Source: Bowmanella sp. JS7-9 (GTDB lineage Bacteria; Pseudomonadota; Gammaproteobacteria; Enterobacterales; Alteromonadaceae). Taken from it: a DNA stretch of 64,000 nt. Numbering within the stretch: position 1 is the stretch's first letter; every line of letters starts with the position of its first letter. Below the pieces are notes generated by a model. The model did no database searches and was not told the DNA's origin. It saw only the letters and a program-made list of their open reading frames with translations. The position numbers and the translations under genes were made by a program. The DNA lies in the NCBI RefSeq assembly GCF_004329715.1, contig NZ_JXSY01000018.1:310001-374000 (forward strand), given 5' to 3'. Positions 32,721-38,758 of the stretch are shown here, piece by piece.

Positions 32721-33233
32721 GTGGTTGTGAAGAGTTGGGTTGCCCTGATTGACAGGTTGAGTTTGCGGCTGAGCCAGATTGTGAGCTGGTTTGGACTGGT
32801 AATGGTGCTGTTGACCCTCGCTGTGGTTGTATTGCGATACGGATTTGATCTTGGCTGGGTTGCCATGCAGGAAACCGTGATGTATCTGCATGCCTGTGTA
32901 TTCATGCTCGGCGCATCCTATACCTTTAGCGTGGATAAACATGTTCGGGTTGACGTGTTTTACAGCAAAATGTCCGCTAACAGGCAGCATTGGGTCAATC
33001 TGTGCGGTGGGATCTTTTTGTTAATACCTGTCTGCCTGTTTATCTTCATTGCCAGCTGGGAGTATGTCATCGCCGCCTGGCAGACCATGGAACGTTCTAA
33101 CGAAGCCGGTGGTTTACCGCTGGTTTACGCACTTAAAACCCTGATATTACTCTTCTCCGGCCTGATGTTATTGCAGGGGCTGGCTGATGTGCTTCGACAT
33201 GCCATCGCCATTGGTCAGCGGGAGGCTCGCTGA
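32721..33233 (+). CDS. TRAP transporter small permease (DctQ-type)
   Basis: 170 residues with four predicted membrane helices (about 18-40, 52-72, 88-110, 130-152), the DctQ layout, including LRYGFDLGWVAMQETVMYLHA and the conserved Arg/Tyr-rich segment. It pairs with the large permease to form the membrane part of a tripartite ATP-independent transporter. Start is GTG at 32721 (alternative GTG at 32727). Its TGA overlaps the ATG of the next gene by one base. Confidence 0.9.
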   Translation: MVVKSWVALIDRLSLRLSQIVSWFGLVMVLLTLAVVVLRYGFDLGWVAMQETVMYLHACVFMLGASYTFSVDKHVRVDVFYSKMSANRQHWVNLCGGIFLLIPVCLFIFIASWEYVIAAWQTMERSNEAGGLPLVYALKTLILLFSGLMLLQGLADVLRHAIAIGQREAR

Positions 33234-34603
33234 TGGAATGGTTATCACTAGTGATGTTCGCGCTGGTTTGTGTGGTGCTGTTATTTGGTTACCCGGTGGC
33301 ATTCTCGCTGGCCGGTACCGCGTTGTTATTTGCGGGCCTGGGTTATCTGACCGGTACGTTTGATGGCGCGTTTTTACAGGCCATGCCCAATCGTTTGTAT
33401 GGGATTATGACCAACCAAACACTGCTGGCGGTGCCTCTGTTCGTGTTTATGGGCGTGGTATTGGAAAAAGCCAAAATCGCCGAACAATTACTCCTGACTA
33501 TGTCAGGAGTATTCGGACGTCTGCGCGGTGGCTTGGCGATATCCGTGATTTTGGTGGGAATGTTGCTCGCAGCCAGTACCGGTATCGTCGGCGCGACCGT
33601 GGTCACGATGGGGCTGTTGTCATTGCCCAGCATGCTCAAACAGGGCTATCACCCTGCGTTCGCCACAGGCAGTATTTGCGCGACCGGCACACTGGGGCAG
33701 ATTATTCCGCCATCCATTGCGCTGGTATTACTGGGGGATGTGTTGTCCAGTTCCTATCAGCAGGCGCAATTAAAACAGGGTATTTTCTCACCTGAATCAG
33801 TGTCGGTTGGTGATCTGTTTATTGGCGCATTGTTGCCGGGCTTAATGCTGGTGTTGCTGTATATGCTTTACACCGTGCTGGTGGCGATATTCAAACCGGA
33901 TTGGTTGCCGGCACCTGCCAAGCAGCAGCAGTCCATAAAACTGGCCGATGTTGCGCAGTCCCTGTTGCCGCCGCTGTTACTTATTTTTGCCGTACTGGGC
34001 TCTATTTTACTCGGCTATGCCACGCCGACAGAGGCGGCGGGGGTTGGGGCGAGCGGTGCATTGCTCATTGCGCTGTTGAAACGTCAGCTTACTCTGGCTC
34101 GCTTACAGGAGATTTTGCTCAACACGCTGACTGTGACCAGTATGGTCTTCCTGATCCTGATTGGCGCGGCGTTGTTTTCGTTGGTGTTTCGTGGGTTTGG
34201 CGGTGAATCACTGATTCATCATCTGTTTGATAATTTGCCAGGTGGCGTGTTGACCGCCATGTTTGTGGTCATGCTGGTGATTTTTCTGCTCGGCTTTATT
34301 CTGGATTTTATTGAAATCACCTTTATCGTAGTACCGCTGGTGGGCCCGGTTTTACTGATGATGGGGGTCGATCCTATCTGGTTGGGGATCATGATTGCAC
34401 TTAACCTGCAAACCTCATTCCTGACCCCGCCATTTGGTTTTGCCCTGTTTTATCTGCGCGGCGTAGCGCCGCCGGACGTTAAGACCGCGGATATCTATCG
34501 CGGTGTTGTACCCTTTGTTGTTATTCAATTGCTGTTACTGGTGGGCCTAGCGGTTTGGCCCGAACTTGCCACCTGGCTGCCGGACTATCTGCAGCAAGGC
34601 TAG
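33233..34603 (+). CDS. TRAP transporter large permease (DctM-type)
   Basis: 456 residues, about 12 membrane helices. DctM features: FALVCVVLLFGYPVAFSLAG at the start, GVVLEKAKIAEQLL, ATVVTMGLLSLPSMLKQGY, GTLGQIIPPSIALVLLGD, and GFILDFIEITFIVVPLVGP later in the protein. This subunit carries substrate with Na+. The gene is translationally coupled to dctQ and lies 14 nt before the binding-protein gene. Confidence 0.94.
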   Translation: MEWLSLVMFALVCVVLLFGYPVAFSLAGTALLFAGLGYLTGTFDGAFLQAMPNRLYGIMTNQTLLAVPLFVFMGVVLEKAKIAEQLLLTMSGVFGRLRGGLAISVILVGMLLAASTGIVGATVVTMGLLSLPSMLKQGYHPAFATGSICATGTLGQIIPPSIALVLLGDVLSSSYQQAQLKQGIFSPESVSVGDLFIGALLPGLMLVLLYMLYTVLVAIFKPDWLPAPAKQQQSIKLADVAQSLLPPLLLIFAVLGSILLGYATPTEAAGVGASGALLIALLKRQLTLARLQEILLNTLTVTSMVFLILIGAALFSLVFRGFGGESLIHHLFDNLPGGVLTAMFVVMLVIFLLGFILDFIEITFIVVPLVGPVLLMMGVDPIWLGIMIALNLQTSFLTPPFGFALFYLRGVAPPDVKTADIYRGVVPFVVIQLLLLVGLAVWPELATWLPDYLQQG

Positions 34604-34617
34604 ATGGAGATATCAAT

Positions 34618-35709
34618 ATGAAATCCTGGATTGTAAAACTTACCGCAGTCACCTCCCTGCTAGGATTGGTTGCTTGTGGGCCGCAAGCAACGGAAAAAGC
34701 GGCACAAGCAACGCCGCAGCAAACCTATGAATGGAAAATGGTCACGACCTGGCCAAAAAACTTTCCCGGTCTCGGACGTGGGCCGGAAACGTTCGCTGAA
34801 TATGTAGACAAAATGTCAGGTGGTCGCCTTAAAGTAAAAGTGTATGGCGCAGGTGAGGTAGTGCCCTGGGATCAGGTATTCGATGCGGTATCCGCCGGTA
34901 CCGTGGAAATGGGGCACTCTGCCGGTTACTACTGGAAGGGTAAAGCGCCGGCCGCGCAACTTTTCGCGGCGATTCCGTTTGGCATGAATGTGCAGGAAAT
35001 GAATGGCTGGTTTCATTATGGTGGCGGGATCGAACTGTGGCGGGAAACCTATAAACCATTTGGCGTAATCCCATTCGCAGGTGGCAATACCGGCGTGCAG
35101 ATGGCGGGCTGGTTTAAAAAAGAAATTAACAGTATTGAGGATTTACAGGGTCTGAAAATGCGTATTCCCGGTCTCGGTGGTGAAGTACTGAAAAAGCTCG
35201 GTGGGGTGCCGGTCGCCATGTCGGGCGGGGAACTGTTTACCGCGCTGCAAACCGGTGCCCTAGATGCAACGGAGTGGGTAGGTCCATATAATGACCGCGC
35301 CTTTGGCCTGTATAAAGCAGCCAATTATTACTATTACTCCGGTTGGCATGAGCCGGGCACGGCGCTGGAATTTATCGTCAACGAAAAAGCCTACAACAGC
35401 CTGCCGGATGATCTGAAAGCCATCGTAGAAGTCGCCACCAAAGCCGTCAATCAGGATATGCTGGATGAATACACCGCACGCAACAGTGAAGCGATGCACA
35501 GCCTGCAAACTGAACACAATGTAGATATGCGTCCTTTACCTGCAGAAGTCATGGCGCAATTGAAAGCTGCCAGCGATGAGGTGTTGCTGGAACAGGCCGC
35601 AGCTGATGCGCAATTTGCCAAAGTGTTGGCGTCTTATCAGGCATTTCAGCGTTCAGCGTCGGCTTATCACAAGATTTCAGAGCTTGAATATTACAAAAAT
35701 CGCGAGTAA
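34618..35709 (+). CDS. TRAP transporter solute-binding lipoprotein (DctP family, 2-oxoacid/TakP-like)
   Basis: 363 residues. The N terminus has a lipobox, LLGLVAC, with Cys20 followed by a Thr/Ala/Gln-rich linker, so the protein is probably lipid-anchored. The body matches the TakP branch of DctP proteins: [58 protein letters not shown] with the substrate-binding Arg, DATEWVGPYNDRAFG and GWHEPGTALEF. TakP-like proteins bind pyruvate and other 2-oxoacids or lactate with a cation; the exact ligand is inference. The ATG at 34618 with GGAG upstream is preferred. Gene order is Q-M-P. Confidence 0.9.
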   Translation: MKSWIVKLTAVTSLLGLVACGPQATEKAAQATPQQTYEWKMVTTWPKNFPGLGRGPETFAEYVDKMSGGRLKVKVYGAGEVVPWDQVFDAVSAGTVEMGHSAGYYWKGKAPAAQLFAAIPFGMNVQEMNGWFHYGGGIELWRETYKPFGVIPFAGGNTGVQMAGWFKKEINSIEDLQGLKMRIPGLGGEVLKKLGGVPVAMSGGELFTALQTGALDATEWVGPYNDRAFGLYKAANYYYYSGWHEPGTALEFIVNEKAYNSLPDDLKAIVEVATKAVNQDMLDEYTARNSEAMHSLQTEHNVDMRPLPAEVMAQLKAASDEVLLEQAAADAQFAKVLASYQAFQRSASAYHKISELEYYKNRE

Positions 35710-35781: not shown

Positions 35782-36957
35782 ATGATTATCCAACCGAAGA
35801 TCCGAGGTTTTATTTGTACCAACGCGCATCCGGTGGGTTGTGCCGCCAATGTGGCCGAACAAATTGCCTATGTTAAGCAACAGGGCGAAGTGGCAGGCCC
35901 TAAGCGTGTGCTGATTCTGGGCTGCTCGACCGGTTATGGTCTGGCTTCCCGCATTGTGTCTGCATTTGGTTGTGGTGCTGATACCCTCGGGGTGTGCTTT
36001 GAAAAAGAGCCGTCCGAGCGCAAAACCGCCACGGCCGGTTGGTACAATGTGGCTGCGTTTCACCAGGAAGCAAAAGCAGCAGGCTTGTATGCACGCACTC
36101 TTAATGGCGATGCCTTCTCTAATGAAATGAAAGCCGACGTCATTGAGGCGATCAAACAGGATATGGGGCAGGTAGATCTGGTGATTTACAGCCTGGCAGC
36201 CCCGCGCCGTACCGACCCGGTGAGCGGCGAAGTGTATAAATCTACCCTGAAACCTGTGGGTAAGGCTTACACCACCAAGACCTATGACACAGACAAAGAT
36301 CTGGTGCATGAGATTTCTCTTGAGCCTGCGAACGAAGAGGAAATCTTCAATACCGTTAAAGTCATGGGCGGGGAAGATTGGGAGTTGTGGTTACAGGCTC
36401 TGAATGACGCCGGTGTCCTGGCCGAAGGCTGTAAAACCACAGCTTATACCTATATAGGTAAAGAATTGACCTGGCCAATCTATGGTCACGCTACGATCGG
36501 TAAAGCGAAAGAAGATCTGGACCGTGCTGCGGCACAAATTAATCAGCGTTATGCGGATAAAAAGGTGCAGGCTTATGTGTCGTCGCTGAAGGCACTGGTT
36601 ACTCAGGCCAGTTCCGCAATTCCGGTGATGCCGCTGTATATCTCGCTGATTTATAAGGTGATGAAGCAGGAAGGTACCCATGAAGGCTGTATAGAGCAGA
36701 TTTATGGATTGTTTAACGACAAGTTGCTTGCCGATGCGCCAGAAACTGATGAAGCCAAGCGCTTGCGGATGGATGGTAAGGAGACCAACGATGCGACTCA
36801 GGCAAAAATCAAAGCACTGTGGGATCAGGTCACGCAGGACAATTTCCACGAGTTAAGCGATTACGCAGGGTATCACCATGAATTTCTGCGTTTGTTCGGT
36901 TTTGATGTGGCAGGTGTTGACTACGAAGCCGATGTATCACCGTTGGCCGATTGGTAA
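35782..36957 (+). CDS. fabV: Trans-2-enoyl-CoA / enoyl-ACP reductase FabV
   Basis: 391 residues, the FabV size class (about 400). Landmarks: MIIQPKIRGFICTNAHPVGC, the NADH-binding VLILGCSTGYGLASRI, SERKTATAGWYN, DLVIYSLAAPRRTDP, and the active-site region YIGKELTWPIYGHATIGKAK with the Tyr-x8-Lys pair. It reduces the enoyl group in the last step of fatty-acid elongation with NADH and is intrinsically insensitive to triclosan. GGAAG precedes the ATG. Flanked by terminators, so monocistronic. Confidence 0.96.
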   Translation: MIIQPKIRGFICTNAHPVGCAANVAEQIAYVKQQGEVAGPKRVLILGCSTGYGLASRIVSAFGCGADTLGVCFEKEPSERKTATAGWYNVAAFHQEAKAAGLYARTLNGDAFSNEMKADVIEAIKQDMGQVDLVIYSLAAPRRTDPVSGEVYKSTLKPVGKAYTTKTYDTDKDLVHEISLEPANEEEIFNTVKVMGGEDWELWLQALNDAGVLAEGCKTTAYTYIGKELTWPIYGHATIGKAKEDLDRAAAQINQRYADKKVQAYVSSLKALVTQASSAIPVMPLYISLIYKVMKQEGTHEGCIEQIYGLFNDKLLADAPETDEAKRLRMDGKETNDATQAKIKALWDQVTQDNFHELSDYAGYHHEFLRLFGFDVAGVDYEADVSPLADW

Positions 36958-36987
36958 AAACTCAGAAGTCATCTATTACTTCTTTAC

Positions 36988-37013
36988 GAAAAGCAGGCTT
37001 AGGTCTGCTTTTC
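36988..37013 (+). terminator. Terminator after fabV
   Basis: AAAAGCAG (36989-36996) pairs with CTGCTTTT (37005-37012) across an 8-nt loop; the T run is interrupted (TTTTCATTTATTT). Confidence 0.75.
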
Positions 37014-37122
37014 ATTTATTTACCAGCTTTTTACATAAAAAAGCGTTTAAACAACAATTTGCGTAGCGAACAGGCGAGCATTGATGCTAAAATTCCGTGC
37101 TTAAGTCAATCCTTATAAAACT

Positions 37123-37423
37123 ATCGGGCGATGGAATGCTGAGCGATTTTATGCGCACGGTGTCGCCGATTAAAAACATCAGCACCAAGGAATTACGAAT
37201 AACACAAGGCGTGTCACATGACCCGACCTGATGTTGTTGTGAGTGGTGGGTAAGGATTGAGTATCCCCCGACGCACCGCCAGACGTGCATCGCACTGAAT
37301 GGCCGGACGGCGCGGGAGACGCTGAAATGCGGAGAACCTGTAGACGTATTCCGGTAGCGCCGGAATAAAGCAGGCCTGAACAGAATTCGGTTCTTTTTTA
37401 TTTTCAGAGTAGTGCAATTGCAT
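37123..37423 (+). ncRNA. Candidate structured leader RNA of the nqr operon
   Basis: The 466-bp gap between fabV and nqrA holds no convincing gene but has clear RNA structure. A TATAAA at 37114-37119 would start transcription near 37125. Helices seen: ATCG-g-GCGA (37123-37131) with TCGCCGAT (37163-37170); AACATCAG (37175-37182) with CTGATGTT (37228-37235), 8 perfect pairs; GTGGTGGG (37243-37250) with CCC-gacgc-ACCGC (37267-37279) capped by GGAT/ATCC; TATTCCGG (37347-37354) with CCGGAATA (37360-37367). The 37179-37184 strand can instead pair with TGCTGA at 37137-37142, so two states are possible. The G+C content of the 3' half is well above its surroundings. No known riboswitch consensus is recognised. 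An sRNA rather than a leader is possible. A 26-codon open frame (37151-37231) lies inside. Confidence 0.5.
37333..37404 (+). terminator. Terminator-like end of the nqr leader (attenuator candidate)
   Basis: AGAACC (37333-37338) can pair with GGTTCT (37389-37394), enclosing the 37347-37367 hairpin, and is followed by TTTTTATTTT. A smaller alternative is GAAC (37378-37381) with GTTC (37390-37393). It ends 19 nt before the nqrA ATG, where a riboswitch expression platform or attenuator would sit. Confidence 0.45.
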
Positions 37424-38758
37424 ATGATAAAAATCAAACATGGCTTAGACCTCCCAATTCAGGGAGCGCCTCAACAGGCCATCCAGGACGGTAACGCGGT
37501 CACCCGTGTTGCAGTGTTGGGTGAAGAATATGTTGGTATGCGCCCCACCATGCACGTGCAGGTGGGTGATGTAGTGAAAAAGGGTCAGGTTCTTTTTGAA
37601 GACAAAAAGAACCCTGGCGTGAAATTCACTGCACCAGCAGCCGGTACCGTAACTGAAGTCAATCGCGGTGAGAAACGCGTTCTGCAATCAGTGGTCATTG
37701 AAATCAGCGGTGATGAACAGGAAGTATTTCCTGCGTTCGCCGATGTAGCCAATGCTGATGCTCAAGAACTGCGTACTGCGCTGGTAAACAGTGGTCTTTG
37801 GACCGCACTGCGTACCCGCCCGTTCTCAAAAGTAGCTGCGGTTGATGGCAACCCTCACTCAATCTTTGTGAACGCCATGGATACTAATCCTCTGGCGGCG
37901 GATCCTGCGGTCATTATCGCAGCGCGCAAAGACGACTTTGAGCGTGGTTTGCAGGTACTGAACAAACTGACCAGCGGAAAAGTGTTCGTCAGCAAAGCCC
38001 CGGGCGCGTCTGTGTCAGTCGGTCAGGCGAAGGTTGATGTAAACGAATTCGCGGGCCCACACCCGGCCGGATTGGTTGGCACACATATCCATTTCCTCGA
38101 CCCGGTTGGTGCGAAGAAAGTTGTTTGGCATATCGGTTATCAGGATGTGATTGCATTCGGTGCATTCGTTGCGACCGGTAAGATTGACTCAAGCCGCGTT
38201 GTTGCGCTGGCTGGCCCAATGGCGAAAAACCCACGTTTAGTGAAAACCTTGCTGGGTGCCTCATTGGAGCAACTGACGGCGGGTGAACTACAGGACGGTG
38301 ACGTGCGCGTTATCTCTGGTTCTGTACTGCACGGTCAAAAATCTGCAGGTGTGCACGCCTATCTGGGTCGTTATCACACTGCGGTTGCTGCACTTGCCGA
38401 AGGTTATGAGAAAAAGCTGTTTGGTTGGTTAGCGCCTGGTTCAGATATGCACTCGGTAACACGTGCTTACTTAGGCCACCTGAGCCCTAAACGTTTGTTT
38501 AATATGACTACCAGCACTAATGGTTCTGATCGTTCAATGGTACCAATCGGTAACTATGAGCGTGTTATGCCGTTGGACATCCTGCCGACTCTGTTGTTGC
38601 GTGACCTGATTGCCGGTGATACCGACAGCGCGCAAGCCATGGGGTGTTTAGAGCTGGATGAAGAAGATTTAGCACTGTGTACCTACGTTTGCCCGGGCAA
38701 ATATAACTACGGCCCAATTCTGCGTAGCGTGCTGACCACCATCGAGAAAGAGGGGTAA
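37424..38758 (+). CDS. nqrA: Na+-translocating NADH:quinone reductase subunit A
   Basis: 444 residues. Starts [16 protein letters not shown], as in Vibrio NqrA, with an early biotinyl/lipoyl-like barrel segment ([19 protein letters not shown]) and [22 protein letters not shown]. NqrA is the cytoplasmic subunit near the quinone site. The ATG at 37424 matches the family start; only a weak AGAG ribosome-binding site precedes it. First gene of the operon, 3 nt before nqrB. Confidence 0.96.

Follow-up and report, generated by a model that had tools for sequence, protein, structure and literature searches.

A long, predicted structured leader upstream of the Na+-NQR operon of Bowmanella sp. JS7-9 and the nqrA leaders of its relatives

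The window, i.e., the whole 64,000-nucleotide stretch of contig NZ_JXSY01000018.1 of Bowmanella sp. JS7-9 (Alteromonadaceae) that was analysed, carries the operon for Na+-NQR, a main respiratory entry point and sodium pump in many marine bacteria. The nqr operon begins with nqrA, whose ATG lies at 37424 (37424-38758, plus strand; NCBIfam NF003759/TIGR01936), and NCBIfam models matched FabV, NqrA, B, D, E, F, and ApbE among the frames of the window that were scanned. Upstream lies fabV (35782-36957), which is parted from the nqr operon by an intrinsic terminator (36988-37013) with an 11-bp stem, a T-rich tail, and a free energy of -14.2 kcal/mol; this terminator and the leader features described below are all on the plus strand. 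The frames upstream of fabV (32721-35709) resemble by eye those of a TRAP transporter, presumably its small and large membrane subunits and binding protein. As the preliminary description of this DNA had stated, the approximately 300 nt upstream of nqrA hold no credible gene, five translated frame pieces giving no Pfam match at E ≤1. An open frame of 116 aa runs antisense to the entire leader (37087-37437, minus strand); it has no Pfam match and is probably due to chance.

The leader was delimited with the use of 162 nqrA upstream regions, the window and identical leaders included, which came from the best 80 loci of a longer genome-collection list and from further genomes of the family; 8 of 60 fetched loci were dropped, their start codon not having been located. 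The motif TG[CT]TA[AG]AAT is present 70-440 nt upstream of nqrA in 152 of the 162 regions (window and identical leaders counted), compared with a background frequency of 1.4% once flanks of comparable length are mononucleotide-shuffled. Removal of the 10 regions lacking this motif and of 20 identical leaders left 132 non-redundant leaders, the window's among them. In the window the motif takes the form of a conserved extended -10, TGCTAAAAT (37085-37093), with a predicted transcription start at about 37100, while a probable -35, TAGCGA (37064-37069), was located within a conserved box by column conservation relative to the -10. Counted from the -10 motif, 122 of the 132 leaders have T at -21 and 124 have G at -19; neither column played a part in choosing the promoter motif, and both fit a -35 with an 18-nt spacer. 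The box at the -35 position, GCGTAGCGA (37061-37069), could represent either a weak -35 or a site for an activator; its T and G columns are conserved in more than 90% of the 132 nqrA promoters, and its exact form, GCGTrGCG, occurs in 14 of them. The TATAAA element from which the preliminary description had begun the leader exists (as TTATAAA), but the promoter is the extended -10 instead, and with a start predicted at about 37100 from the conserved -10, the TATAAA falls inside the transcript. The untranslated leader predicted from the -10 motif extends from about 37100 to 37423, i.e., over approximately 324 nt.

The leader ends in a conserved start element, AGTAGTGCAATTGCATATG (37408-37426), recognised by a loose pattern across leaders: AGTAGTGCAA..ATATG or variants of it close 125 of the 132. 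No good Shine-Dalgarno sequence was seen in the element by eye. In the window, translation could also begin in frame at a GTG (37412) four codons upstream of the ATG at 37424, and an in-frame GTG, ATG, CTG, or TTG stands at -12 in 109 of the 132 leaders, so that NqrA may start there instead. Genome-wide, AGTAGTGCAA is not enriched (4 exact copies versus 11 for the reversed control), and the loose pattern with at most two mismatches is found once in the window and in 34 of 100 shuffles. A class-level survey found nqrA in 19 of 143 genomes, and the start element was read in the same-family context only out of 18 class contexts, where starts had been set by alignment offset and several were uncertain. 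Outside the class, a Neisseria dentiae locus has TTAGTGCAA before the ATG.

Folded from the promoter-defined start, the leader has a z of -2.8 with none of 400 shuffles equally good, compared with a z of -1.72 (6 of 100 shuffles equally good) for the start at 37115 adopted in the preliminary description. The added stability accompanies P1, a helix missing from the earlier list, formed by arms 37106-37115 and 37251-37260, which are perfect 10-bp complements of each other. The pairing probability of P1 is 0.86-1.0 for the inner eight pairs and 0.31 and 0.75 for the outer two, and perfect complements of at least 10 bp arise in 8 of 300 shuffles. The domain closed by P1 (domain I) is, as modelled, the best-supported part of the leader: 37105-37260 by itself has a z of -3.31 (1 of 400 shuffles equally good) and 37261-37410 in total a z of -1.87 (18 of 400), in a test that covered four segments of the window's leader. 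Domain I comprises hairpin A (37123-37170), predicted from the MFE structure and pair probabilities, and hairpin B (37183-37248), predicted from the MFE structure, as is domain II, a GC-rich hairpin region (37260-37323). Next come a stable hairpin (37337-37374, pairing probability 0.91-1.0) and a U-rich tract (37391-37405). That the Na+-NQR operon has a long, structured leader, as first described, is supported by the shuffle z values, the pairing probabilities, and the NCBIfam match of NqrA.

The helices originally listed for the leader are of unequal standing. The one at 37347-37354/37360-37367, a perfect 8-bp complement held in the stable hairpin, has a pairing probability of 0.97-1. The helix 37123-37131/37163-37170, held in hairpin A, is partly formed (about 0.2-0.85) but not perfect, as it needs a bulge; 37175-37182/37228-37235 is a perfect 8-bp complement but has a pairing probability of 0; and 37243-37250/37267-37279 does not appear, by eye, as described, with no pair above 0.05. 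Perfect complements of at least 8 bp occur in 121 of 300 shuffles, so the 8-bp helices are individually ordinary. A switch had also been proposed, in which the same bases would pair in either of two exclusive ways. It is true that 37137-37142 is complementary to 37179-37184 and that this pairing excludes the second helix, 37175-37182/37228-37235, but both sides are improbable (about 0.1 versus 0). Forcing the second helix costs 8.7 kcal/mol, and two competing folds of similar energy, as would be looked for in a riboswitch, were not found for the one pair of alternatives tested.

The terminator-like element said to precede nqrA was not borne out either: its local stem has -1.4 to -2.6 kcal/mol, compared with -14.2 for the terminator after fabV, and it is absent from the terminator scan. 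The U-run is present, while a stable GC-rich hairpin directly before it, characteristic of an intrinsic terminator or a transcription attenuator, was not found. A longer-range stem, 37332-37336/37391-37395, adjoins the U-run and encloses the stable hairpin, with a probability of about 0.2-0.3. The window's leader was aligned, and the alignment read by eye, with the leaders of Neptunicella marina, whose NqrA is the closest (77%) among the best 80 loci listed, and of G023, the genome with the best leader DNA match among the matches listed for 98 relatives; the U-run and the start element align, and the bases of the local stem lose their pairing. On this comparison and the modelled fold, the U-rich tract is more likely an accessible stretch before the start site than the tail of a terminator, and it may aid ribosome binding. 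The "riboswitch or attenuator" proposed in the preliminary description is consequently unsupported, its switch pairings being improbable and its terminator stem weak and not kept in Neptunicella.

Relatives of the leader core were sought in several ways. Rfam gave no match in the window at gathering level and none that explains the leader, for which the preliminary description had recognised no riboswitch consensus; a permissive scan of 36900-37600 at E ≤10 returned only four unrelated families, 20 loci of relatives gave no match at gathering level, and a search of the window's own genome with RF00557 (L10 leader) found none. In the DNA search of the 98 relatives, good matches were at the promoter and start ends only, among the matches listed, and the core had weak scattered matches, the best per-genome E values among those listed being 0.0024 and 0.0028, the latter in a genome where it lies far from nqrA. 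R1, a single-sequence covariance model of 37100-37265, found the window alone in 395 family and 295 order genomes (overlapping sets, strict filters), and its search of 76 nqrA loci gave nothing convincing (best 8.7 bits, E 8.3). As no homologue of the core was found, the window's copy has no support from covariation. The listed family genomes that supplied nqrA loci include no second species of the window's genus. The distance from the -10 motif to the ATG is 132 nt in N. marina and 85 nt in G023, and both leaders fold ordinarily (z -0.47 and +0.32, respectively); longer leaders also occur among genomes with 74-77% identical NqrA, e.g., four of 184-307 nt.

Across the family, 60 of 94 non-redundant leaders (window counted) span at least 180 nt from the -10 to the ATG. 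The 131 non-redundant leaders other than the window's have a mean z of -2.12, with 49.6% below -2. The structure is concentrated near the start: the mean z is -2.68 for the 82 nt that adjoin the start element (n=131, window included, one leader being too short), -0.80 for the next 82 nt upstream, and -1.06 for the 5' end (n=87 for both, the leaders long enough for upstream windows). Counted by sequence cluster with the window left out, z is below -2 near the start in 22 of 41 clusters and further upstream in 2 of 24. In 61 of the 132 leaders the pairing stops 22-24 nt short of the ATG. Several clusters, those of Pseudoalteromonas and Rheinheimera among them, have no near-start hairpin. In the window, the region next to the start has a z of -1.58; its stable hairpin ends at 37374, and the local fold adds an enclosing helix that reaches to 19 nt before the ATG. 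Over all 132 leaders, pairing in general between leader and start region shows no excess (mean z +0.13, window -0.05).

Nine leaders, of which three come from named genomes of Bowmanella and Lacimicrobium, have in common a conserved, aptamer-like module made up of AATTGCAGG.GCTTG, CAGGT, a long hairpin, and the start element, and occupying the last 135 nt or so before nqrA. In this module 6 of 36 pairs are changed on both sides, a number that 500 shuffles never attained, and pairing is kept in 96% of cells, compared with 24-49% when the alignment is slid. Its outer helix, invariant within the nine, would cover the start region. Two of the nine loci were scanned against Rfam and gave no match to the module. 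R2, a covariance model of this Bowmanella/Lacimicrobium-type leader trained on the nine, found in the 395 family genomes nine strong matches, i.e., the training leaders, which belong to three genera, and 23 further genomes that match weakly (E 1.1e-5 to 0.08). The window was tried as a leader of this type and rejected: it scores 14.4 bits with R2, through the start element and outer positions only and with 105 model positions unaligned, and the R2 search of its own genome gave no match at E ≤0.1. As a candidate riboswitch, the module seems the better of the two when set beside the window's leader.

R2 also served to align the near-start hairpin of a wider set, 30 forward rows being kept of 40, in an alignment fitted to the model. 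In these 30 leaders 14 of 16 pairs are changed on both sides, compared with 5-9 in slid controls, and the 21 rows outside the training set show 82 double-change cells versus 10 after a shift of +1 and 16 after a shift of -1; the 22 non-training loci in the alignment had been picked for matching R2 in a scan of 67 nqrA loci. On the predicted folds, nqrA leaders tend to be structured across the family, and several genera have a hairpin close to the start whose pairs show compensatory changes. A different conserved box, near ACTGAAATACACTGAAATC, is found in six leaders of Colwellia and Thalassotalea, together with a TACTCCC[AG]TCAAA stretch adjoining the start element; a quick RNAalifold run on these six sequences gave double changes in 7 of 31 pairs.

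The likeliest reading, at about even odds, is that the leader is a structured 5' UTR that evolves quickly and influences the translation of nqrA or the stability of its mRNA. Transcription from the conserved promoter of sigma-70 type (37064-37093) would give the nqr mRNA approximately 324 nt of untranslated leader. Folded, this leader would comprise the closed three-way domain (37106-37260), the GC-rich hairpin region (37260-37323), and the hairpin at 37337-37374; on the 3' side of these come the U-rich stretch and then the conserved, Shine-Dalgarno-poor start element. Such a leader would act in cis, setting ribosome access to the nqrA start and/or the stability of the mRNA, and would not be a terminator-based attenuator. 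We infer that the window's copy, the core of which is without a known relative, shares the role of the family's leaders. Several findings go against this reading, namely the lack of a core homologue, the short and ordinarily folded leaders of Neptunicella and G023, the near-start z of only -1.58 and the R2 score of only 14.4 bits in the window, the clusters that have no hairpin, and the absence of enrichment for pairing to the start.

The main rival, possible though the less favoured of the two, is a non-functional, fast-evolving spacer, in which the promoter and the start element alone matter and the fold is incidental. It would account for a core that occurs in no other genome searched, bar weak scattered matches (best listed E 0.0024), and for Neptunicella and G023 retaining both elements with 85-132 nt between the -10 motif and the ATG and ordinary folding. 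Moreover, the stretch had been picked for its visible helices, which biases z, and the span chosen at that time gives only -1.72. What speaks against a mere spacer is the z of -2.8 from the promoter-defined start, which none of 400 shuffles equalled, and the family itself, where 60 of 94 leaders, the window's included, are at least 180 nt long and leaders are on average non-randomly folded.

A leader that senses Na+, redox, or flavin as a riboswitch or transcription attenuator, as first suggested, is improbable in the window. The closed three-way domain I and the stem directly before the U-run (37332-37336/37391-37395, about 0.2-0.3) would suit it, one clade among the relatives conserves a leader that is aptamer-like, and nqrA-II of Pasteurellaceae and the Marinomonas motif show that riboswitch candidates can occur in nqrA leaders (PMC11109978). 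Against it stand the cost of the proposed switch helix (8.7 kcal/mol, probability 0), a local terminator stem that is weak and lost in Neptunicella, the lack of any Rfam match, and the lack of homologues of domain I in the 395 family and 295 order genomes, which means that no conserved aptamer is demonstrable. The original hunch about nqrA leaders has merit at the family level, given structured leaders there and two published motifs elsewhere, but a riboswitch in the window is unsupported. Equally doubtful is the bolder proposal that Alteromonadaceae have an unreported class of cis-regulatory nqrA leaders, composed of an upstream sensory domain, a compensated hairpin, and the start element and controlling translation of the sodium pump, of which the window would hold a highly diverged, genus-specific version with a three-way sensor domain.

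Two further explanations have very little to recommend them. The perfect inverted repeat at both ends of 37106-37260 and the lack of any relative of the core could point to a small MITE-like inserted element with 10-bp terminal inverted repeats, but no second copy was found in the genome (other matches E ≥1.5), in plasmids, or in phages, and no target-site duplication was seen by eye. Least probable is leader-peptide attenuation or translational coupling via a short upstream ORF whose stop would be the TAG within the start element, an idea suggested by the TAGTG of that element and the TAATG of some Pseudoalteromonas leaders, which resemble stop/start overlaps. Such a stop is present in 119 leaders, but in 63 of them the open frame (median length 11 codons) lacks a start codon, as it does in the window, and the leaders show no pattern of upstream ORFs.

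The structured 5' UTR favoured here can be set beside the nqr leaders known from other bacteria and from the family itself. The gonococcal nqr is repressed without oxygen and under iron depletion (PMC3032703), and no mention of its leader was found in the accessible text of that source. The other nqrA leaders of Alteromonadaceae, none of which was met with in the literature searched, share with the window the promoter type, an often long leader, and the start element; they differ in the compensated hairpin that ends 22-24 nt before the ATG (61 of 132), which in the window is weak or displaced, and in the upstream core, to which that of the window is unrelated. The published nqrA-II comprises 36 representatives from Pasteurellaceae with four covarying stems directly upstream of nqrA (PMC11109978) and appears as RF04310 in the paper on Rfam 15 (PMC11701678). 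Like the window leader, it lies as a structured RNA immediately before nqrA and is a candidate cis-regulator of nqr; unlike it, it belongs to another bacterial family and has four covarying stems, and it is absent from the Rfam matches of the window even at E ≤10. The window tried as nqrA-II gave no covariance model match at gathering level. An earlier nqrA motif, that of Marinomonas, is described as unrelated to nqrA-II, and it resembles the window leader in being a lineage-restricted structured leader before nqrA (PMC11109978); no nqrA family is among the window's matches in the Rfam copy used, which may not include this motif. With these two published motifs, the kind, i.e., a lineage-specific structured nqrA leader, is already known. 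Structured nqrA leaders in Alteromonadaceae, beside the two published and unrelated motifs, would point to repeated origins of nqr control at the RNA level, and, if so, a comparison of the lineages could reveal a shared signal. The window by itself, one copy without relatives, is of modest value here; if functional, its leader would be a new variant among the lineage-specific nqrA leaders.
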